Source: a virus
IMG/VR virus record: IMGVR_UViG_3300033148_002887
Coordinates: 1 to 21,034 of that record
Direction: 5' to 3' (one strand)
Length of the DNA stretch: 21,034 nucleotides
Of this stretch, positions 308-17,921 are shown piece by piece. A program made the translations under genes and the position numbers. Each line of letters begins with the position of its first letter. Position 1 is the first letter of the stretch. The notes beneath the pieces are model-generated. The model was not told the DNA's origin. It saw only the letters and a list, made by a program, of their open reading frames with translations, and made no database searches.

Positions 308-670
308 TTAAATTGGGTCAATGCCCTGTGGGACAACTTTCAACGTATAATGCTCCTCGATATTAAATGGAGGGGCTAACGTAGTATTGATTACTTCAAT
401 TACTTGAGTATATGGACGATAACTTTCGCTATCATCAACATCTAATAGATTTGTTTCCGTCGGAGTTAATGCAGCGATAAATCTTAAATTATCCGCTGTC
501 TTGCCAGTCACTTCCCTCTTAGCAATTACAACTGCTCCATCTGCATCATTGACAGCGGTAAAGCAGCTCCAGTTTGAATCGAGAGTCGCTCCATCATCTA
601 ATACCGTTGGTCGTGGCCTAATAATTGGCCCAGTATCACCTTGGTAAATTGTATATTCTTCAACAGCCAT
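308..670 (-). CDS. Hypothetical phage structural protein, 120 aa
   Basis: A small protein of 120 residues with no signal peptide or membrane segment. It opens with EEYTIYQGDTGPIIRPRP and alternates beta-strand-like stretches, for example GAVVIAKREV, NLRFIAALT and HYTLKVVPQ. This resembles small beta-sandwich proteins found near phage fibres and baseplates (a start with QGDTGP and a polarised strand pattern), but I cannot assign a family. AGGA lies seven bases before the ATG. The gene overlaps the end of the 660-5225 adhesin by 11 bases, so the two are probably translationally coupled. It sits between the adhesin and the head-tail connector, so a virion role is likely. Confidence 0.75.
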   Translation of the reverse strand: MAVEEYTIYQGDTGPIIRPRPTVLDDGATLDSNWSCFTAVNDADGAVVIAKREVTGKTADNLRFIAALTPTETNLLDVDDSESYRPYTQVIEVINTTLAPPFNIEEHYTLKVVPQGIDPI

Positions 671-3600
671 CTTCTAGTCCTATAAGTTCAATAGTAGAGT
701 CTAACATATAATTTTCAGGCAGCATAGATAGATCGAGTGTTTCTATTTCGATATCTAAATCATAAGATTCATTATCATAATTTATTCCATATGGAACGCA
801 TAATAACGGAGTTCCACCAGTAAAGGATAAGGTTGCGTCAGAACCAGTTATATCAAATTCAACTGTTTCTGCTACTATACTATGGTGATATGCAAATTCT
901 ACATTTGTGCCGGAAATTATAAAAGTACCGGACTCTGTACCAATAGACTTATTATGTGCTAAGCCTATATCTTGGCCGGATATTAAGAAAGATCCATTTT
1001 CTGCAATAATAGAATTTACAGTCTTTAATGTAACATCTTGCCCGAGTATTACATACTCGCCAACCTCAGAGGATATTGCATAACTTGTTTTAAACGATAC
1101 ATCCGTTCCAGATATATCATATTCGCCGTTAGAGACAGATATGGCATACCCTTTTCCTAAATCGACAGATTGACCCGTAATATTAAATGATACGCTATCT
1201 ACAGATGCTACTTTATCTGATAGGAAATTAACGTCCGTACCAGTAATATTGAATAGCCCAGTTTCAGTAAATAATACTAATTCACTATTAAATGTTACAT
1301 CAGCGCCAGTTATTAAAAACTCGCCATTTAACGTAGATACTGTATAGTCTCTATTAAAGTCAATATCTATGCCAGTAATATTAAATACGGTAGTCGCTGT
1401 AGATAAAGTATAATCTATTAATAGTTCAGCAGGTTGGCTATTAATAGCAAAAGCGCCAGATATGACATTCGCCGTATAGTCTATGCTGAAGTTGACGTCC
1501 TGTCCTGATATATTAAACTGCCCATTCTCTATAGAAATTGCATATCCAACTGCTAAATCTACATCAAAGCCAGATAGCGTAAATTCTCCATTTTCTGCTA
1601 TTAGCGAATTTTGAGCCGAAAGATTAACATCTTGTCCCGTTACGTTAAATGATCCAACTTCATTAATGAGAACGTACTCTTTAGATAATACTATATCAGT
1701 ACCATCTAAAGAAAACGCTCCATTATTTGAATTAAGGATATAATCAACTGAGAGATCAACAACAGTTCCGCTGATCGTATATCCTTCAGAAATATTAGAC
1801 AAAGTATAGTCTACTGAAAGATTTACATCAAATTCAGTTATTATATATGAGCCAGACCCTGCTAATATTGATTTCTCACTATCAAAATTAACATCTGTTC
1901 CTGTTATTAAGTATGCCCCATAATCCGGTATTAGCGCATAATCACGATTAAACGTAACCTCCGTTCCAGTGAATAAATAAGAGCCAGAAAGTACATCTAG
2001 TGTATATTTTATCGAGAGATTAACATCGGAGCCATCGATTAAGAAAGCGCCATTTTCTGTAGCTAGAGTATAATCTCTATCTAATTCTGCATCTATTCCA
2101 GTAATTAGAAATGATTCAACGGTAGGGATTAATATATATCCTTGCTGGAGATCTACGCTTGCCCCAGTAATATTAAATAATGTAGATATTGAGCCTAATA
2201 CATATCCCTGTTGCAGGTCTACGTCTGTCCCTGTAATATCGAATAATCCAGATCCAGCGGATAATGATTTTTCGCTATCGAAATTAACATCAAATCCAGT
2301 TATTGTATATTCGCCAACAATAGTTGATATTGCATAATTACGGCTAAATGCAACATCTATTCCCGTAATATTAAATGCAGTCGTCTCAGTAACTAATGAA
2401 TATCCCTGCCGTAAAGTGGCATCCGTTCCATCAATATTAAACGCTGAGGTTATCGTGCTTAATGAATACCCTTGTTGAAGGTCTACATCAAAGCCAATTA
2501 TATTAAATATGCCAGAGCCAGCGGATAGTGATTTAGTACTATCGAAGTTGATGTCATACCCTGTTATTACATATTCGCCAGCAATAGTAGTTATTGCATA
2601 ATTAAGATCGAACGTAACATCGTTGCCGGATATATTAAAGGCTTTAGTTGATGTAGTTAGTGTATAGTCCTGAGAAAGAGTTACATTAGAGCCAGAGATA
2701 ATAAATGATTCTGTAGAAGGAACTAATGAATATCCCTGAGTAAGATTAGCCGCCGTACCCGTAATATTAAATTCTTCTGTAATCGTTTGCAATACATACG
2801 ATATTGCAAAATCTACATCAGTACCAACTATATCAAATGATACAGTTAGATTGGGGAGACTATACCCTATTTGAAGATCTGTGTTTGACCCAGTAATACT
2901 AAATACTTCTGTAAGAGTATCTAATGTATAGTGTATCGCGCTAGATCCCTTAGTCAGTGTAACGTCTGTACCGATTATGTCGAATTGTACTGTTTCTATT
3001 GCTACCGGATGACCATGGATTAAGCGAGTAGATCCAGTCTCACCAAGAATAATTGCCCCGAGTTTTGCGGATCCTAATGTAAAACCATAATCACCATATA
3101 TATAAGTTCCAGATAAAGCATCAAGAATACTAGATGCATCTATGCCTAAATCGACAATCGTCCAAGTGTGATCTGCAATAAGTGCAGCGCGTGCAGCCAC
3201 AGCACTCGAATTATAATGGATTGTGCTCGCACCTAAAGATACATCGTTAAGAACTGCTTGCGCTTCCCACCCTATTAATATATTACTATAATTCTCTGTG
3301 GATAATCCGGATTGGTCAAATGTATTAGGAGCAGTGGTTAATCCAGTAACATTCCAGGATGCTAGATTTTGATTAAAGGAAGTAGCTAAACCAAAAGTAA
3401 AGGTTAAATTCGATAATGATGAACTCGGTTCCCAGCTAGATATATCTTGATTAAATGCAGGTGAATTATAAAATGTCGCGTAGCATGTCGTTACTGCACT
3501 TACATCCCAAGACGTTATATTTCCATTAAATATAAGACAAGAAGAAAACGTGCCAGCTAAATTATTAACAAGACTTGTATTCCACGAATTTAAGTCTTGA

Positions 3601-5225
3601 TTAAACGAATCACAATCATAAAATGTATAGTACAGGCTATTACAGCCTGAAACGTCAAACCCATCAATATCGGCGTTAAATAAAGGACAACCCCAAAAGG
3701 TTCTTTGTATATTTGTTAATGCTGAAGTAATCCAACTAGATAATCCTGTTCCAGTGAAGGATGAGCACCCTCTAAAAGTTTGATATAGAGATTCAACTAA
3801 AGTTACATCCCAACTAGAAAGATCAGCATCAAAATCAAAACATTGATTAAAGGCTTCTTCTAGCGTCGTTATTGACGTTGTAGTCCAGTTGGATAATCCA
3901 ACACCCGTAAAAGAAAAGCAATTACTAAAGGCTTTATATAAACTTATTCCAGAACTAATATCCCAGTCACTAAAATCATAAACACTTAGTGAAGAGCAGC
4001 CATTAAACATGTTTTCAAAAGCTGTTACACCAGATAAATCAGGATAATCGGTAGCCGATATATCTAAGTTAATACAATCATATGCAAAACTTGACATAGT
4101 ATCAAAAGCAGCGTCGCCCCACCGCTTAATATCTATCCATTTTATATTATCCGACGATTCACCGAACTCAAAATTAAACGCCGAACATGTTCCTATAATC
4201 GAAACATCATACTCACCGGCTAATTCATACTCGTGAGTTTTACTCGTCTGCCATCCAGCGGTTACAGTAGATGATTCCCCGTCTCCCCAATAAACGGTAA
4301 AGTTATATGTGCTACCAGAAAAATTAAGAGGGAGAGTAATAGACTCAGCATCAGCCGTAGTCTTCCAAGTAGTTATAAATGGATTGCCACTTATAATATT
4401 TACATTCACCCCTGTAATATTAAACGCTTCAGTAAGCGTATCTAACGTATAATGATTGGCGACACTTTCTTTTGTTAGAGTAACATCCGTGCCAGTTATA
4501 GCAAAAGATTCAGTTATTGCCTCGGTAGCGTAACCTTGCTTTAATATTACATCTGTGCCCGTTATTGCGAAAGATTCTGGTATTGCCTCGGTAGTGTAAC
4601 CTCGTTTTAATGTTACATCTGCGCCAGTTATAGCAAAAGATTCCTCTAAAGCGTCGAGCGCGTGATGCTTAATATAAGTAAGCTCTACATCCGTTCCTGT
4701 TATTGCGAAAGATTCTGTTGTCGCATCTAATGTGTAATGAGTAACCTCTATTTCGTACGTTATCGTAAATTCAAGTTGATCTTGTAAGCAAACCGTGGAA
4801 CCATAGGGGTCGTTGCCATATCCGGTTGAATCAGTACCAGCTGAATTTTTCCAAGAAGTTGAGCCCGTTTCTAACGCCTCCGCTGATAGGGTAATGGTAG
4901 TGGCACCATCAACCAGGACAACAAGACCAGATTTTACTGAGACCCCAGTAACAAAATCAGTAACCCTGTAATCCATTGAGGCTGAAGTAACTCCTGTTAC
5001 TGTTGTTCCAGCCGGAACACCCATATCCTCCCAAGTTAGCGTTCTATCCCAGTAGTTTGGAGAAGAAGTATTACCTTTATTTCGTCCGTAGCAATGCGAG
5101 CTAAGCGAGCGGAGTGGATTGCCTTGGAAAGCATTCAGCTCCATAGTAACGGAACTACTATCTGGATGCGAAACGAAGCTCTCTACATCAGTATAAAAGG
5201 CGAAGGTTTTTACTACAGTAGCCAT
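660..5225 (-). CDS. Giant phage adhesin: 22-residue repeat arrays flanking a BspA-type (DUF285) LRR module, 1521 aa
   Basis: Residues 1-161 form a beta-rich N-terminal domain, probably for virion attachment. Residues 163-279 hold five copies of a 22-residue repeat with the core FxITGxDVxL. Residues 281-693 hold a PKD-like unit (VYWGDGESS, then THEYELAGEYDVSI) and a BspA-type LRR (DUF285) with recurring FNxDLSSWDVS-type motifs. Residues 740-1468 hold 33 more repeats, the last 32 exactly in 22-residue register. A 53-residue tail ends in GLEDGC. No signal peptide is seen, as expected for a virion protein. The ATG lies one base after the TAA of the upstream gene and has no clear SD, which suggests coupled translation. 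A role as tail fibre, receptor-binding or decoration protein is inferred from the domains and the late-operon position. Similar ITGxDVxL repeats occur in phage tail-associated proteins by recollection. Confidence 0.88.
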   Translation of the reverse strand: MATVVKTFAFYTDVESFVSHPDSSSVTMELNAFQGNPLRSLSSHCYGRNKGNTSSPNYWDRTLTWEDMGVPAGTTVTGVTSASMDYRVTDFVTGVSVKSGLVVLVDGATTITLSAEALETGSTSWKNSAGTDSTGYGNDPYGSTVCLQDQLEFTITYEIEVTHYTLDATTESFAITGTDVELTYIKHHALDALEESFAITGADVTLKRGYTTEAIPESFAITGTDVILKQGYATEAITESFAITGTDVTLTKESVANHYTLDTLTEAFNITGVNVNIISGNPFITTWKTTADAESITLPLNFSGSTYNFTVYWGDGESSTVTAGWQTSKTHEYELAGEYDVSIIGTCSAFNFEFGESSDNIKWIDIKRWGDAAFDTMSSFAYDCINLDISATDYPDLSGVTAFENMFNGCSSLSVYDFSDWDISSGISLYKAFSNCFSFTGVGLSNWTTTSITTLEEAFNQCFDFDADLSSWDVTLVESLYQTFRGCSSFTGTGLSSWITSALTNIQRTFWGCPLFNADIDGFDVSGCNSLYYTFYDCDSFNQDLNSWNTSLVNNLAGTFSSCLIFNGNITSWDVSAVTTCYATFYNSPAFNQDISSWEPSSSLSNLTFTFGLATSFNQNLASWNVTGLTTAPNTFDQSGLSTENYSNILIGWEAQAVLNDVSLGASTIHYNSSAVAARAALIADHTWTIVDLGIDASSILDALSGTYIYGDYGFTLGSAKLGAIILGETGSTRLIHGHPVAIETVQFDIIGTDVTLTKGSSAIHYTLDTLTEVFSITGSNTDLQIGYSLPNLTVSFDIVGTDVDFAISYVLQTITEEFNITGTAANLTQGYSLVPSTESFIISGSNVTLSQDYTLTTSTKAFNISGNDVTFDLNYAITTIAGEYVITGYDINFDSTKSLSAGSGIFNIIGFDVDLQQGYSLSTITSAFNIDGTDATLRQGYSLVTETTAFNITGIDVAFSRNYAISTIVGEYTITGFDVNFDSEKSLSAGSGLFDITGTDVDLQQGYVLGSISTLFNITGASVDLQQGYILIPTVESFLITGIDAELDRDYTLATENGAFLIDGSDVNLSIKYTLDVLSGSYLFTGTEVTFNRDYALIPDYGAYLITGTDVNFDSEKSILAGSGSYIITEFDVNLSVDYTLSNISEGYTISGTVVDLSVDYILNSNNGAFSLDGTDIVLSKEYVLINEVGSFNVTGQDVNLSAQNSLIAENGEFTLSGFDVDLAVGYAISIENGQFNISGQDVNFSIDYTANVISGAFAINSQPAELLIDYTLSTATTVFNITGIDIDFNRDYTVSTLNGEFLITGADVTFNSELVLFTETGLFNITGTDVNFLSDKVASVDSVSFNITGQSVDLGKGYAISVSNGEYDISGTDVSFKTSYAISSEVGEYVILGQDVTLKTVNSIIAENGSFLISGQDIGLAHNKSIGTESGTFIISGTNVEFAYHHSIVAETVEFDITGSDATLSFTGGTPLLCVPYGINYDNESYDLDIEIETLDLSMLPENYMLDSTIELIGLEDGC
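822..3008 (-). repeat. Long coding tandem array: 33 units of 22 residues (66 bp)
   Basis: This stretch encodes residues 740-1468 of the giant adhesin. From residue 765 to 1468 there are 32 consecutive units of exactly 22 codons (2112 bp) without an indel; one further unit precedes them with a short linker. The unit is GYxLxxxxxxFxITGxDVxLxx. The DNA has diverged between units while protein register is kept, which indicates selection on the protein rather than fresh slippage. A higher-order repeat is visible: units at residues 875-962 (2340-2603) match the next four at 963-1050 (2076-2339), each block starting NYAI and containing KSLSAGSG in its second unit. Confidence 0.95.
4389..4739 (-). 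repeat. Short coding tandem array: 5 units of 22 residues
   Basis: This encodes residues 163-279 of the giant adhesin, upstream of the BspA module. Five units carry the same core as the long array. The first four contain ESFAITGTDV or ESFAITGADV and are much more alike than the units of the long array, so they look recently duplicated. Two small linkers (2 and 5 residues) break the register, unlike in the long array. The LRR module appears inserted between two parts of one repeat system. Confidence 0.92.
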
Positions 5226-5226
5226 A

Positions 5227-5667
5227 TTACTGGTTCGCTATAATCCTATCTGCGATAGCTTTTATTTCAAGATATGAATCCTTAACGGCTGGATCAAAAT
5301 CAGACGCTAAGATTACGCTATCATCCAATAACTTACTTACTAACTGAACAAGAACTAGAACGGTATCTTTTCCATATAACCTAAGAGCCTCCGTGTCCTT
5401 TGCTACCCGTTCTTGATCCAACTCCATTTGAGTTTTAGTAACTACTGTATAAACTCTAGTAGCAACATTTGTTACATAATCATACGAATCTTCGGGAATA
5501 GAAAGACGTTCTATTTCTGTATCTACTGCCGGCTTAGTAATATCAACTTCTACTAGAAATATTTTTCCGTTAACAATAGAAGAATCTTTAGTATTATATG
5601 TTTCAAATAATCCGGTTCTACTACCAATTATAATATGTACTACAGGGTCTATTTCAAAATAAAGCAT
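5227..5667 (-). CDS. Hypothetical protein, 146 aa, between the two BspA-LRR genes
   Basis: I chose the ATG at 5665-5667 (MLYFEIDPVVH) because GGAGGT at 5676-5681 lies eight bases upstream and the ATG overlaps the TAA of the preceding gene by one base (TAATG). A longer frame starting at 5697 would overlap the upstream gene by 31 bases. The N-terminal half looks beta-rich (HIIIGSRTGLFETYN, GKIFLVEVDI). The C-terminal half is helical and charged, with MELDQERVAKDTEALRLYG and a last helix near LEIKAIADRIIANQ. No membrane segment is seen. The shape recalls small fibre-associated or chaperone-like proteins, but I do not recognise it. It lies in the adhesin cluster of the late operon. Confidence 0.8.
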   Translation of the reverse strand: MLYFEIDPVVHIIIGSRTGLFETYNTKDSSIVNGKIFLVEVDITKPAVDTEIERLSIPEDSYDYVTNVATRVYTVVTKTQMELDQERVAKDTEALRLYGKDTVLVLVQLVSKLLDDSVILASDFDPAVKDSYLEIKAIADRIIANQ

Positions 5668-6719
5668 TACGCTGAACCTCCATCGGTTATAGCCCAATTA
5701 TAAGTATCTGTAAGAACTAACTTAGCGGCAGTTTTGGTATATTTGGCTGTGCCAGCGTGGAACGGAACATCGCTTTGTAACGACTGGTGCTCCCAAGCAT
5801 CGAGAAGCAGATCGTAGTTTGTATCTGAAAACGCAGAAGAATAAAACATAAAGTCCATAGTGGCAACATCAGCAACGTCTAATCCACTAACATCTGGGTT
5901 AGCAAGTGTTGCCCCGTAAAACATGTAATCCATATTAGCGACGACGCCAGTGTTCCACCCACTGATATCTGGATTCAGCGCTGTAGCATTACAGAACATA
6001 TACTGCATATTCTCTACTAGTGTCGTCACCCAATCAGCTACATACGGATCAGCTGAAGTGGCCCCATAAAACATAAACTCCATACTTGTTACGCCACTAA
6101 CATCCCAATCCGTTACATCTGGATCCGCTGATGTTGCACCATAAAATACAAATTCCATATTCGTAGCGGAACTTGTATCCCAAAAACTCGTATCTGGATC
6201 TGCTGCTATAGCGCCATAGAACATAGCATAGAAGCTCCAAGCTGTGCCTAAATCCCATGAACTTGTATTCGGATTGACCAGTACCGCATCGCGGAACATA
6301 CCGCCAACATCTGTTACAGAGCCAAAAGCTCCAGCGTCTGTCGCAGTAGTATATAAATTGGAACAACCGTAAAAAGCTCCATTAAGATAAGTGAAGCCTA
6401 CATCTCCCCAATTAGATACATCTATGATCTTTAGCCTATCTCCAGCATTATTGAAAGACCAAGCCTCACAGGTTCCTGAAATAGTTACAATATAATCACC
6501 AGCATCATCATATTCATGAGTGGCATCAGCATCATCCCACGCTGTCACCGTTTTTAATCCAGAGTCATCCCCATAATCAACCATGAAGTCATATGTATAT
6601 ATGCCAGTTATTAATGGAAGAACAATACTCTCGCTTGCACCAGAAGTGTGCCATTCAGTAATAAAATCAGATGACCCCCTGGATGCCTTACCAAATTGCA
6701 TTCCATTCATACTAAACAT
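5667..6719 (-). CDS. BspA-type (DUF285) leucine-rich repeat phage protein, 350 aa
   Basis: Residues 19-82 form a PKD-like unit (FMVDYGDDSG, then THEYDDAGDYIVTISG). Residues 100-300 are a BspA-type LRR (DUF285) with an exact 25-residue spacing of the key Trp at 155, 180, 205, 230 and 255, in the pattern WDxSxxxNMxxMFYGAxxADPD. A tail follows (DAWEHQSLQSD to WAITDGG). The whole module parallels residues 281-693 of the neighbouring giant adhesin, from its FITxW start through its HxWTIVD-like end, so the two genes share a duplicated or exchanged module. The ATG directly follows the TAA of the fibre gene; GAGGA lies ten bases upstream, and an internal ATG at codon 4 is an alternative. Surface binding is inferred. 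Confidence 0.88.
   Translation of the reverse strand: MFSMNGMQFGKASRGSSDFITEWHTSGASESIVLPLITGIYTYDFMVDYGDDSGLKTVTAWDDADATHEYDDAGDYIVTISGTCEAWSFNNAGDRLKIIDVSNWGDVGFTYLNGAFYGCSNLYTTATDAGAFGSVTDVGGMFRDAVLVNPNTSSWDLGTAWSFYAMFYGAIAADPDTSFWDTSSATNMEFVFYGATSADPDVTDWDVSGVTSMEFMFYGATSADPYVADWVTTLVENMQYMFCNATALNPDISGWNTGVVANMDYMFYGATLANPDVSGLDVADVATMDFMFYSSAFSDTNYDLLLDAWEHQSLQSDVPFHAGTAKYTKTAAKLVLTDTYNWAITDGGSA
5850..6257 (-). repeat. Coding 75-bp tandem repeats of the DUF285 LRR
   Basis: About five and a half units of 25 codons (residues 155-290 of the 350-residue protein). Adjacent units keep near-identical DNA around the MFYGATSADP segment; on the plus strand this shows as recurring blocks containing CCATAAAACATA and TCCAT. 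The high DNA identity compared with the older 22-residue array suggests recent unequal recombination or gene conversion. Confidence 0.85.
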
Positions 6720-13533: not shown

Positions 13534-15114
13534 TCATTTCTTAATAGTCTTATCCATAGTATTCGTCTTAACTAAGCCTTCACCTACGTCTAATTCGTCA
13601 GTAATCATTCCATCGTTAGCGCTCGAATCTATATCCCCTGGCTCTACTGGCGCTTCGTATTTCTCTCCGTCTTTATCTAGCCTATCTAATTCATCCTGAA
13701 CAGTTTCACCTGGATGTAACATCCCGGCCTTACGGAAACTTTCAAGAAGCGTGCTATGGCTAATAGCGGTAGACTGCCAGCTTTGGATCATAGCGATCTG
13801 CTCGTTAGCAGTAAGGCTAAACGTAGAGAACTCCTGATTCGGAGTAAATTCGGTTTCGTTTTCGTCTCCGCCAGCCCAAATAGTAGCCCATCTACTTATT
13901 TGCTGTAGCCCTACTCCAACATTACCGACGACGGATTTAAGCGATGCAGTAGCCGAAGCCTGCCTAAGTCGAAGAGCCTCTCCAGATTCTGCCGCTCCTT
14001 TTCTCGATCCGAGCAATGATGCACCGAGTTCTTGCGCTTGAGAATATAAATCTACTATCCTAGCCAATAGGTGAGTCATAGCGGAAGTATCGGTAGTTGT
14101 ATACCCTACCCTTGCCTGACTATCCGCTAGAGATATGAGTACGCCTAGTCCAGTAGCACCAGGTGTCTCGTCCTTATCAACTCCGGTCATATACATAGTC
14201 GGAACTGTAGACGTATTCTCTGCATGCTTTAGCATACAAGATAAATCATATATACTAATTTCGCAGTCTGCTATTCCCTCTAAAGGAATAATATCTATAT
14301 CTGGGGTATTATCGAGAGATCCACATGCAATTACTGGAATAAAGTCAATCGTCTTGCCCATATATGTCGGCACTATCGTTTCTACTACAGTGCCATCATC
14401 AGTCGCTCTATGGTTCTCGATTGTGTATATGCCGTTAACTAGCATATGGCGAATTATAATTTCCTTATGTTTTGGCACGCCACGATTAGAAATTGGATCG
14501 TATTTTTCGTTTAGTTCATAATCGCGAAAAATAGCCCAATTAAAAGTAGAGTCGTCAGTAGATGCATCGGACGCTTCCCAATTTAAAAGCGCCGTTTCAC
14601 GAAATTGTACGATTTTAATTTTACCGTCAGAGTCATCTATATCAAGCACCAAAGGACAACGCCCCTTGAGCAAAATCTGAAGAGCTACTCTTAAAAATAA
14701 TTCGTTAAGTGATTTGCCATCTTTCGTCGCACGCTCGGAAAGATATTCCATGCTATCGGGGGCTTCATAAACAGACTTATGCTCTCCGACGAGAGACATG
14801 TTTCCCCGTGTAGTTGGCCCTAGCAAATCCGGGACGTATCCATCGTTAATATATTTCTTAGTTAATGGGAAGTCGTCCCAGCCAGCACCTTCCGCGAGTG
14901 GTTGAATCAGACCGTTAGTGGACTTCTTCATCTGCTCTATCTGCGTCGCATCGAGCAACGTAACGTCCATTTGACCTGCTGGAGCAGCTATGTACCTTTG
15001 AGCGTAGCGCTTTACGTCACGATTATAGCAGTCGTCCATTTTCATCCATCTGGATAAAGCACGGCCATAAGTTTCGTGAATATCTACGTTAATAGCGCTA
15101 GATTGCATTATCAA
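13534..15114 (-). CDS. Portal protein, DUF4055-like, 526 aa
   Basis: The protein is large, polar and without membrane segments. The pattern (DLLGPTTRGNMSLVGEHKSV, LKGRCPLVLDID, IVQFRETALLNWEASD, PLEGIADCEISIYDLSCMLKH, ETPGATGLGVLISLADSQAR and ASLLGSRKGAAESGEALRLR) matches the DUF4055 portal group: the SGxALRxR motif and a long C-terminal helical region are characteristic. It sits between terminase and scaffold, the canonical place for the DNA-translocation ring of the head. The TTG at 15112-15114 is preferred because GGAG lies seven bases before it and it overlaps the upstream TGA; the ATG at 15106-15108 would have a 13-base spacer. The C-terminus is acidic, with a short basic tip. Confidence 0.85.
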   Translation of the reverse strand: MIMQSSAINVDIHETYGRALSRWMKMDDCYNRDVKRYAQRYIAAPAGQMDVTLLDATQIEQMKKSTNGLIQPLAEGAGWDDFPLTKKYINDGYVPDLLGPTTRGNMSLVGEHKSVYEAPDSMEYLSERATKDGKSLNELFLRVALQILLKGRCPLVLDIDDSDGKIKIVQFRETALLNWEASDASTDDSTFNWAIFRDYELNEKYDPISNRGVPKHKEIIIRHMLVNGIYTIENHRATDDGTVVETIVPTYMGKTIDFIPVIACGSLDNTPDIDIIPLEGIADCEISIYDLSCMLKHAENTSTVPTMYMTGVDKDETPGATGLGVLISLADSQARVGYTTTDTSAMTHLLARIVDLYSQAQELGASLLGSRKGAAESGEALRLRQASATASLKSVVGNVGVGLQQISRWATIWAGGDENETEFTPNQEFSTFSLTANEQIAMIQSWQSTAISHSTLLESFRKAGMLHPGETVQDELDRLDKDGEKYEAPVEPGDIDSSANDGMITDELDVGEGLVKTNTMDKTIKK

Positions 15115-15626
15115 TGTACTACTCCACGTGTTTGTGGTTTAAGTTCGCGCACTGGCATTAGGTAATATACTAGATACCCAACTGCGTCAGTAATATGATC
15201 TAGCCCAGACTTCTTATCGGGTTGCCCGTTAGGAGTATAAATTTGCTGTTCGAGGGCTTCTGTTATTTCGGGGCATCTTTCAGTATCGATAAATAATTTT
15301 TCGCGATTAAATGCGTTATTTACCGACGCAATTCTATCCTTAATGAATGGGTTTTTACTTCTTGCCCTAATTGAAAATCCAGCTTTGCGCAATAATGCAA
15401 TATCAGACGTTCCTGCGTCGGTCGATCCTCTCTTTATGCCACTAGCATCGGGATAACAAATTAGTTTATCGTCTGGAAAATCGAATTGTATTGCTGCAAC
15501 TAATTCCGGGGTATCCAAGAAATCATGGTATTCTTTGAATACATATAATTTTCCGTCGATTAATCTAGCGCAAACAGCCGCCATATGCTCCACGTTAAAG
15601 TCCATTCCTACGTGAAGAATCTTCAT
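15111..15626 (-). CDS. terL: Terminase large subunit, nuclease domain (separate gene), 171 aa
   Basis: It opens with KILHVGMDFNVEHMAAVCAR, the start of a RuvC-like TerL nuclease with Asp9 as the first metal ligand. A second acidic motif is ICYPDASG, with the Asp in a strand end. The third is GLDHITDAVGYLVYYL near the C-terminus. These are the three acidic sites of the headful-cutting nuclease. It normally belongs to the same protein as the ATPase; here it is a separate frame, shifted by -1 and joined to the upstream ATPase by an ATGA overlap. AGGAT is too close to the ATG to be a good SD. The stop overlaps the portal TTG. Confidence 0.87.
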   Translation of the reverse strand: MKILHVGMDFNVEHMAAVCARLIDGKLYVFKEYHDFLDTPELVAAIQFDFPDDKLICYPDASGIKRGSTDAGTSDIALLRKAGFSIRARSKNPFIKDRIASVNNAFNREKLFIDTERCPEITEALEQQIYTPNGQPDKKSGLDHITDAVGYLVYYLMPVRELKPQTRGVVH

Positions 15627-16522
15627 CCTATCGATACCACGTTAGAGTTATACATTTCGTCGTTAATAGCGTCGTTGAATTCAAAGTGATGATCCTTTCT
15701 GCTAAAGCAATGATAGCAGGCTCCGCCAGTTAAGTTGACGAATTCTCCATTTAGATATGCTTCGATTAACTGTGGTGGATAACTAGCGCGCAAATTAGCT
15801 ATATAGCTCTTAGGCAAATAAGGATTAGATTCAGTGGCCGCCCTGACTAAAAGGTATCCTTCATTATCTTCCTTTTCCCATTTCTTATAAGTAAATTTAT
15901 ATCCTTCAGGAGTGGTGAACACTCCTACTTTATTAGGAATTGTGAACGTCCCATTATATATAGTATCCGCTGGTAGCGGTGCAGACTCGTTTTCAAAGTC
16001 TGCCATTATATCTTTTGGGATGACCGTTCCAAGAGGCGGCTGCTGACGATTACGAGAGATGATTTTATTCCATGCTTCTTCGGCTCTCGATTGGGGCATA
16101 GTATCTAATTCGTCTACAAAGCTAGCGAATACTTCATAGGCTATAATCCTTGCCGGGTTATCCATGGAGCGACAGATTATCTTACCGTGGCCTTTAATAT
16201 AAAAGATGAAATCTTGTTTATTAAAAGTCCAGGACAGGCCAAAGTGATCAAGGAGTTCCGCGATTCGGGGCTGATTGTTTAGCTTAATCAAATCGTAAGT
16301 AGGAGCGTAAAGAGCTACGTTAGCCCAAGGGAATTTTACTACGGTCATTACTGCGATATAGTGCATGATTTCTGATTTGCCGGAGCCAAAGCCCGCGACG
16401 AACGCTAATGCCCAAGCAGTAAGCGTGAACCATGCATTCCAGAACTTTCCTTGTGGAGGCGTCGTTTGCCAAGCGTGATCGCTATCGCTGACTGTAGACT
16501 GAATTGATGCCTGCTTACTCAT
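15623..16522 (-). CDS. terL: Terminase large subunit, ATPase domain (separate gene), 299 aa
   Basis: The Walker A motif is GFGSGKS at residues 44-50 and the Walker B is FASFVDELD at 132-140, with Asp137 and Glu138. A coupling motif (VFTTPEGYKFTYKKW, 201-215) follows. The end (EAYLNGEFVNLTGGACYHCF) is the usual end of the ATPase region. ATPase plus nuclease gene total 470 residues, the normal length of a whole TerL, so no sequence is lost at the junction. The start overlaps the putative small terminase stop by four bases (ATGA). It stops in NVVSIG just where the nuclease strand should begin. Confidence 0.9.
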   Translation of the reverse strand: MSKQASIQSTVSDSDHAWQTTPPQGKFWNAWFTLTAWALAFVAGFGSGKSEIMHYIAVMTVVKFPWANVALYAPTYDLIKLNNQPRIAELLDHFGLSWTFNKQDFIFYIKGHGKIICRSMDNPARIIAYEVFASFVDELDTMPQSRAEEAWNKIISRNRQQPPLGTVIPKDIMADFENESAPLPADTIYNGTFTIPNKVGVFTTPEGYKFTYKKWEKEDNEGYLLVRAATESNPYLPKSYIANLRASYPPQLIEAYLNGEFVNLTGGACYHCFSRKDHHFEFNDAINDEMYNSNVVSIG

Positions 16523-16935
16523 TCGATTTTACCGTCACCATCATTAACAGTGATTGTAACGGATTTTGAGTTTCCATCAGACATCTCTACTTCTTTCCAT
16601 TTATCTGCATTAGCAGTTAGAAAAGCAAGGCAGGCATCCGCTGCCTTAGGAGATACTGAGCCCATAATCTTAAAGAGCTTCTCAGTTACCTTAAATTTGG
16701 CATCGTTCCGGCCTTTAAGGACGTTAATAGAGAAGAAATAAGCGTCAGGAATCGAAAGCTGATTAAGATCCTCAATCCCGTAAGTGCCTAGAACCTCATT
16801 ATCACTAAGCCCCGCCGCAAGTCTCTTGATTACGTTTTCATCCTTTTCAACGAAAAATGACATAGCTTCATAATTCCACGCTTTAGGTGGAAGATCAGAT
16901 GTATCATTTTTATTAAATTGGGCCAGAGTACTCAC
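16519..16935 (-). CDS. Probable terminase small subunit, 138 aa
   Basis: The gene lies directly upstream of the TerL ATPase with an ATGA overlap, the usual place for the small subunit. The protein is helical and of plausible size. It contains AAGLSDNEVLGTYGIEDLN, which resembles a helix-turn-helix, then DAYFFSINVLKGRNDAKFKV, and a Lys/Asp-rich C-terminus ending SVTITVNDGDGKIE. The start is a GTG (GTG AGT ACT CTG); the upstream AGGA is distant, so the exact start is uncertain. The function is inferred from position and from the helix-turn-helix-like stretch, not from a clear family motif. Confidence 0.68.
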   Translation of the reverse strand: MSTLAQFNKNDTSDLPPKAWNYEAMSFFVEKDENVIKRLAAGLSDNEVLGTYGIEDLNQLSIPDAYFFSINVLKGRNDAKFKVTEKLFKIMGSVSPKAADACLAFLTANADKWKEVEMSDGNSKSVTITVNDGDGKIE

Positions 16936-17149: not shown

Positions 17150-17327
17150 AGGACGAGGGAGGCTAAATCTTAGTATCGATACCCCTAAACTCGGGCCGAT
17201 AACATATGTGCTCCGCTGTCCACAGTTCCGCGTGCTCTCCTCCCTATTTGCTTTAGGCTATTTTCTTTTGAAAAATTTTTGAGGCTTTCGGATTTATTCG
17301 TTCGGTGGAGAAGATTAAGGGGCTTGA

Positions 17328-17390
17328 GGTTGAGTTGAGGGTTGAGAGTGGTTGAGGGTGGTTGATGGAGGTATCTAGGGGTTGATGGAG
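17328..17390 (+). repeat. Helically phased GGTTGA boxes in a G-rich, C-poor tract
   Basis: GGTTGA occurs at 17328, 17340, 17350, 17360 and 17380, with AGTTGA at 17334. The spacings of 12, 10, 10 and 20 put the last four boxes on one face of the helix. GGTTGATGGAG is exactly repeated at 17360 and 17380. The tract from 17324 to 17373 has no C on the plus strand. It lies about 20 to 110 bases upstream of the candidate early promoter. Candidate activator or replication-initiator binding array; G-quadruplex or R-loop potential is also possible. Confidence 0.7.
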
Positions 17391-17405
17391 CGCCGCCGGG
17401 TAGCT

Positions 17406-17440
17406 TTTTCGTGGAAAAGGCGGTATACTACGTGTATGAT
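17406..17440 (+). promoter_or_regulatory. Candidate early promoter with overlapping inverted repeat
   Basis: TGGAAA (17412-17417, 4 of 6 to the -35 consensus) and TATGAT (17435-17440, 5 of 6 to the -10 consensus) are separated by 17 bases. A second -10-like TATACT is at 17424-17429. An inverted repeat TTTTC-GTG-GAAAA (17406-17418) overlaps the -35 and could be an operator. The early gene leader starts directly downstream. Strength is uncertain. Confidence 0.45.
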
Positions 17441-17461
17441 AAATAAAAAACGAAATGAGAC

Positions 17462-17543
17462 TTTCCCCCCACGCGGGAAACGCTCGCCCGAAAATCGGGT
17501 GGGCGATACGGGTAATTTTACCCAGAATAAGGGGATTTCCCCT
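17462..17543 (+). promoter_or_regulatory. Structured 5' leader with four consecutive hairpins
   Basis: Four perfect stem-loops are lined up before the first early gene. TTTCCC/GGGAAA spans 17462-17480. TCGCCC/GGGCGA spans 17484-17506 with an alternative inner CCCG/CGGG. GGGTAA/TTACCC spans 17510-17523. AGGGG/CCCCT spans 17530-17543. The last ends 21 bases before the ATG. None is followed by a U-run. A regulatory leader or a protein-binding RNA is possible. Confidence 0.65.
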
Positions 17544-17564
17544 ACAACCATAAAGGTAATTAAA

Positions 17565-17921
17565 ATGAAAGCACTTACTAAAAACGCAGTCAATACCGCC
17601 ATAGAAAATGAAACTACCTGGACTAAAATAATACAATTAGTATCTACCCTCGAAAATGTAGATAAAGCTGGCGCGGAAAGCCTACTCAAAAAAGGCGGAT
17701 TCGATAAGCCGGAAAAAGCCGTGAAACGCTCCGTGCCGCAAAAAGTGGCCGATAGACTCGCCGAAGGAAAAATGACAGAAAGCGAACTTAAAACGCTCCT
17801 GAAAGCGATTTCCGGTAATCCAACCAGAGCGTTCAAAACGAACCTTCCAATGCTCGAACTCGCTAACAAAATCCACGCTAAGGTAGAAATGGAAAAAGTA
17901 GCTGGCCCAATCCAAAGCTAG
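17565..17921 (+). CDS. First early gene, hypothetical basic helical protein, 118 aa
   Basis: I chose the ATG at 17565 (MKALTKNAVNTAIEN) because AAGGT lies about seven bases upstream. A longer in-frame upstream start at 17382 would run through the hairpin leader and has no SD. The protein is helical and Lys-rich, without membrane segments: TTWTKIIQLVSTLENVDKAG, LLKKGGFDKPEKAVKRSVPQ, DRLAEGKMTESELKTLLKAI and PMLELANKIHAKVEME. It looks like a compact nucleic-acid-binding or regulatory protein, but I do not recognise a family. It is followed by a strong terminator 8 bases after the stop. As the first early gene behind a structured leader, it may be abundant. Confidence 0.82.
   Translation: MKALTKNAVNTAIENETTWTKIIQLVSTLENVDKAGAESLLKKGGFDKPEKAVKRSVPQKVADRLAEGKMTESELKTLLKAISGNPTRAFKTNLPMLELANKIHAKVEMEKVAGPIQS

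Follow-up and report, generated by a model that had tools for sequence, protein, structure and literature searches.

Here, we describe a conserved two-gene form of the large terminase subunit (TerL) in a small clade of uncultured IMG/VR phages. In the 21,034 b virus record IMGVR_UViG_3300033148_002887, a fragment taken here at its full length (the window), the ATPase and the nuclease of TerL are encoded by two adjacent genes, and the same division was found in one nearly identical record and in three diverged relatives. It is very likely, judging from sequence comparison, that one gene fission gave rise to a two-polypeptide large terminase, whose halves would be translated separately, reassemble non-covalently and package DNA. 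A sequence-only reading of the window had reported two ORFs with Walker A and B motifs in one and acidic nuclease motifs in the other, and left a choice between a natural two-protein terminase, a coupled reinitiation, a frameshift and a sequencing or assembly error. That description agrees with the ORFs, Pfam matches and translations, which are given below in the order of the minus strand.

16519-16935, minus strand: TerS-like gene of 138 aa with a GTG start, a candidate small terminase; shares ATGA with the ATPase gene at 16519-16522
15623-16522, minus strand: TerL ATPase gene, 299 aa; Pfam Terminase_6N, 4.6e-13, residues 41-271, above the gathering cut-off
16373-16396, minus strand: Walker A, AGFGSGKS, read from the translation; identical in all three split ATPases that are complete
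16109-16123, minus strand: Walker B and catalytic glutamate, SFVDE, read from the translation; D137 and E138 invariant in 46 relatives
15626-15712, minus strand: ATPase C-terminal tail (residues 271-299, the last three being SIG); low-confidence in the model (pLDDT <60, and <50 from residue 279)
15623-15626, minus strand: ATGA stop/start overlap of the ATPase and nuclease cistrons, read from the sequence
15111-15626, minus strand: TerL nuclease gene, 171 aa, RNase H-like; Pfam Terminase_6C, 5.8e-10, residues 6-153, above the gathering cut-off
15600-15602, minus strand: catalytic Asp D9, invariant
15447-15449, minus strand: catalytic Asp D60, invariant
15186-15200, minus strand: third acidic motif, D143-H-x-x-D147, invariant in the split clade and at least 90% conserved in relatives
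13534-15114, minus strand: portal gene (phrog_145 portal, 6.5e-64), directly downstream of the nuclease gene

Each ORF carries the hallmarks of one TerL domain, namely Walker A, Walker B and the catalytic glutamate in the ATPase, and an RNase H-like fold with an acidic triad in the nuclease. The two halves have the same folds as the D6E TerL (PDB 5OE8): residues 17-270 of the ATPase AF2 model (pLDDT 82) align to D6E TerL 11-239, and residues 2-159 of the nuclease AF2 model (pLDDT 88) align to D6E TerL 256-417 with a Z of 16.6. The ATPase model also matches the P74-26 ATPase fold (Z about 23 for both P74-26 and D6E), and the closest structures to the nuclease model are the terminase nuclease domains of D6E, SPP1 and P22. 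By sequence, a search of the PDB with each half returned nothing at E values up to 1, and a profile search of the PDB reached P74-26 TerL and T4 gp17. According to the models, the break sits in the short linker between the two domains (D6E TerL 11-239 versus 256-417) and both domains are complete; the D6E authors isolated the ATPase domain as residues 1-234 (PMC5727402). The weak model confidence at ATPase residues 271-299 would be expected of a linker end that has been set free, and the terminal SIG of this tail is common to three split lineages. At the other end of the pair, the C-terminal arm RELKP..VV of the nuclease is kept in three split lineages; in D6E TerL the C-terminal arm touches the ATPase active site (PMC5727402).

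The pair lies in a packaging and head operon with the minus-strand order TerS-like gene, ATPase, nuclease, portal, scaffold (matching phrog_206), major capsid (matching phrog_247, Gp13-like) and then tail and lysis genes. The TerS-like gene had no family match, and its proposal as a candidate TerS comes from its position and from the homologues that precede the ATPase gene in two split relatives, L001 and L024. In the window and in these two relatives the TerL pair is located between the TerS-like gene and the portal gene. ORFs on both strands overlap at 17250-17920, where the minus-strand structural operon meets plus-strand genes. The tail region includes proteins with DUF285 (PF03382) repeats at 660-5225 and 5667-6719, both on the minus strand (3.4e-86 and 2.8e-39); in the 1521-aa protein among them, a repeat of about 22 residues resembling FxITGxDVxL also occurs about 27 times. 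These repeat proteins are candidate receptor-binding or adhesion fibres.

At the hinge, the two cistrons of the window overlap by the four bases ATGA, the nuclease frame is -1 relative to the ATPase frame, and about 16 nt are open in both frames. The absence of an X XXY YYZ heptamer, which had been reported for the short stretch open in both frames, held for the 60 nt upstream of the overlap, and the Shine-Dalgarno sequence before the nuclease start is weak, as had also been stated. ATGA or short overlaps are common at other borders of the operon (TerS/ATPase in the window and L001, nuclease/portal in L212), so termination-reinitiation at the ATGA overlap is probably the route by which the window nuclease is translated, which supports the option of coupled reinitiation.

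The sequence-only reading had proposed to look for the same split in related phages, and it was found in L002, L001, L024 with L028, and L212. L002 (IMGVR 3300033143_002861) has the same junction as the window; the 7,177 b over which the two match at 99.86% identity contain 10 substitutions, all away from the junction, and 0 gaps. In L001 (3300033153_001992), the ATPase and the nuclease are each 85% identical to those of the window (69-75% at the DNA level); its ATPase ends in the same SNVVSIG followed by TAA, and a 91-nt spacer precedes a nuclease that has its own ATG behind the Shine-Dalgarno-like AAGGA. Inside the spacer lies a 30-aa ORF (L001:2437-2529; MIDFANIFLIPSALLAVGIMVYLVYTRNYR), which overlaps the nuclease start by ATGA and resembles a single membrane span; among the loci read, no homologue of it was found in the other three split lineages. 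L024 (3300033155_001112) is more distant from the window (ATPase 68%, nuclease 70%, portal 44% and capsid 72% identical), and in its junction, of which L028 is a second record, ASIG is followed by a TAA that abuts the ATG of the nuclease in the same frame. TAA also terminates other genes on the L024 contig and, as far as the sequence tells, is not obviously reassigned there. In L212 (3300033153_003382; nuclease 62% and portal 41% identical to those of the window), the contig starts within the ATPase, of which only the last 53 residues are visible; the ATPase frame stops 11 nt inside the nuclease ORF, whose start lies behind the Shine-Dalgarno-like GAGGAG. Thus, the break falls in the same linker in four lineages, each with a DNA junction of its own (ATGA overlap, 91-nt spacer, TAA abutting ATG, 11-nt overlap), TerL is in two cistrons in all of them, and every split nuclease opens with its own ATG just ahead of the first nuclease strand. 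Wherever a source is given for a split record, it is an IMG/VR set in the series 3300033142-3300033155, which is probably a single project, and no record of the clade is a proven complete genome.

In TerL trees of 51 and 62 sequences, the split taxa formed one clade (support 100/100 and 100/96), and the nearest intact sequences, L040, L186 and the L210/L253 group, each have a single TerL ORF. Single-ORF TerL was also observed in 80 of 80 proviral relatives retrieved by a profile search of genome contigs with a broader alignment, and in nearly all of about 80 IMG/VR relatives found by the nuclease or by the capsid gene (33 loci); a search of the genome contigs with the split-nuclease alignment found no relative. 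The exceptions in IMG/VR were records cut by contig ends and L045 (IMGVR 2724679370_000006), which was rejected as a split because it is a truncated C-terminal remnant of TerL with no adjacent ATPase frame; it lies in a provirus and has apparently decayed. The earlier proposal that intact relatives without the split would count against it is therefore answered in two parts: distant relatives are intact, whereas all four lineages of the window's own clade are split. The trees are most simply explained by a single fission, after which the junction drifted, and two independent cistrons would permit spacing, overlap and ribosome-binding sites to vary freely in this way. Within this TerL family, L006/L043 (IMGVR 3300035698_013577) has an intein-like insert inside Walker A (GYG, then CLRADTQV...HHN, then SGKT), and the TerL of L123 (Taishania pollutisoli contig NZ_JACVEL010000022) is nearly identical in the tree to the TerL of Salmonella phage SETP13-type Jerseyvirus, which in a Bacteroidota assembly is probably contamination.

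The split clade shows no variation in the Walker A motif, the Walker B motif and its glutamate, the TTPEG motif or the three acidic motifs of the nuclease, and intact relatives have the same motifs. Between the window and L001, the numbers of changes at codon positions 1, 2 and 3 are 40, 27 and 154 for the ATPase and 33, 10 and 93 for the nuclease, with dN of about 0.11 and saturated dS; between L001 and L024, dN/dS is 0.11 for the ATPase and 0.18 for the nuclease, and NG86 dS is saturated for most pairs. Judged from these substitutions, both halves are held by strong purifying selection and their divergence is mostly synonymous.

With these data, a sequencing or assembly error, which had been among the options, is excluded by L002 and the three diverged split relatives. 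There are terL records with one-base frame breaks (phiPDS1, described below, is an example); however, an error could not be shared by four lineages that have one linker broken in differing DNA arrangements, and the junction of L002 is identical to that of the window. A decaying pseudogene is hardly better placed, since the split persists down to 62% identity with all catalytic residues kept under strong purifying selection, and we give error and decay together almost no weight. A programmed -1 frameshift or stop readthrough, which would yield a full-length TerL and leave the lone ATPase as a by-product, could make use of the -1 offset and the stretch of about 16 nt open in both frames of the window. 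However, the shared stretch holds no slippery heptamer and the geometry of the junction varies among relatives. The overlap of the window, the 91-nt gap with its small ORF in L001 and the in-frame TAA followed by ATG in L024 rule out a single recoding signal, and the 11-nt overlap of L212 and the separate ATG of each nuclease also speak against it. Recoding is thus very unlikely.

It is also highly improbable that the halves are rejoined after translation by a split intein or at the mRNA level by an intron. The intein-like insert at Walker A of L006/L043 and the two inteins of Mic1 TerL (PMC7156551) indicate that such elements do enter terL genes. In the split clade, however, neither new terminus carries extra sequence of intein size, the 4-nt gene overlap in the window contains no insert and leaves no room for an intron, and a spacer is present only in L001. 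Group I introns are longer than the 91 nt of that spacer. There is likewise only a slight chance that the split is real and the nuclease is an independent enzyme outside the packaging motor (a resolvase-like one, for instance), as might be considered for a nuclease fold shared with RuvC and poxvirus resolvases. The best structural matches of the nuclease are nevertheless terminase nuclease domains, its gene keeps its place beside the ATPase gene, and its C-terminal arm is conserved; furthermore, the scanned proteins of the window, which is a fragment, included no second recognisable terminase nuclease. Of the options raised at the outset, it is the natural two-protein terminase that the nearly identical record and the three diverged split relatives support.

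By domain content, the split enzyme is a TerL like that of Guernseyvirinae (e.g. Salmonella phage SETP13), with the same domains, motifs, order and operon position and about 42-47% identity by domain. The TerL proteins of SETP13 and D6E are single polypeptides with a covalent linker, whereas in the window a stop and a new start replace the linker; it is hence a conserved two-gene TerL. In the open-licence literature that was searched, where an older report may be missed, the only split or two-gene large terminase was that of phiPDS1, in which large terminase domains were annotated in two adjacent CDS and the authors suggested that an alternative codon table or a problem of assembly might be the cause (PMC10773633). 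In our analysis, terL of phiPDS1 (Parabacteroides phage PDS1, MN929097; L090:23502-25054) lies in two frames. Since the isolate C1_85S2P, which is 98.6% identical to phiPDS1 and separated from it there by a single gap, has one terL ORF, and five other phiPDS1 relatives have one intact terL ORF each, a point frame break (or an assembly issue) is, on this comparison, the simplest reading of the phiPDS1 split, which differs in this from the conserved fission here. The searched part of a review of jumbo phages reports split DNA and RNA polymerases, and a split terminase was not found in it.

Other known arrangements differ as well. Interrupted terL genes, such as those of Mic1 with its inteins and of Campylobacter phage IBB_35 (PMC3322345), have their interruptions spliced out to give one chain, whereas the window has no such element. 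Packaging ATPases of the phi29 type lack a fused, active terminase nuclease, and one of them, phi28 gp11 (PDB 7JQ6), was only a distant fold match to the ATPase of the window; here, in contrast, an intact and conserved nuclease gene directly follows the ATPase gene. When the domains of T4 gp17 were separated at the hinge, each reportedly kept its own activity and translocation was lost (PMC9958956, review). That cut falls between ATPase and nuclease as it does here, but it is artificial, whereas the split in the window is natural and conserved. With T4 as the best-studied case, a working natural split is therefore surprising, and its function cannot be assumed.

In the explanation that we favour, terL underwent a single fission in the linker between ATPase and nuclease, which left adjacent cistrons in the packaging and head operon. 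The window nuclease would be made by termination-reinitiation, and those of L001 and L212 would be translated from their own ribosome-binding sites. The two polypeptides would then reassemble non-covalently, with the ATPase ring sitting on the portal and the nuclease docking on this ring via the surfaces and the C-terminal arm that single-chain terminases use. Alternatively, the nuclease might join only for the cuts made at initiation and termination. That the pump ring runs without a covalently attached nuclease, which would be a separate subunit binding only for DNA cutting, is a tentative proposal that we hold at somewhat below even chance. If it were true, the inter-domain hinge would be dispensable for translocation in this TerL family, and motors could differ in how many nuclease copies they carry.

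For annotators, these lineages indicate that a terL gene in two ORFs is not always an error, and a natural split yields separate subunits, which packaging assays could combine, leave out or count. In models of the T4 motor, the nuclease domain and the hinge move DNA, whereas in the Sf6 model the lid of the ATPase does the work. Models thus disagree on whether the nuclease domain helps to move DNA or serves for cutting alone, and a lineage with a natural split offers a system in which the need for a physical link between the halves can be tested. Given that a clean split has been kept through saturating synonymous divergence, the comparison of these genes suggests that the covalent link between ATPase and nuclease is dispensable in the split lineage.
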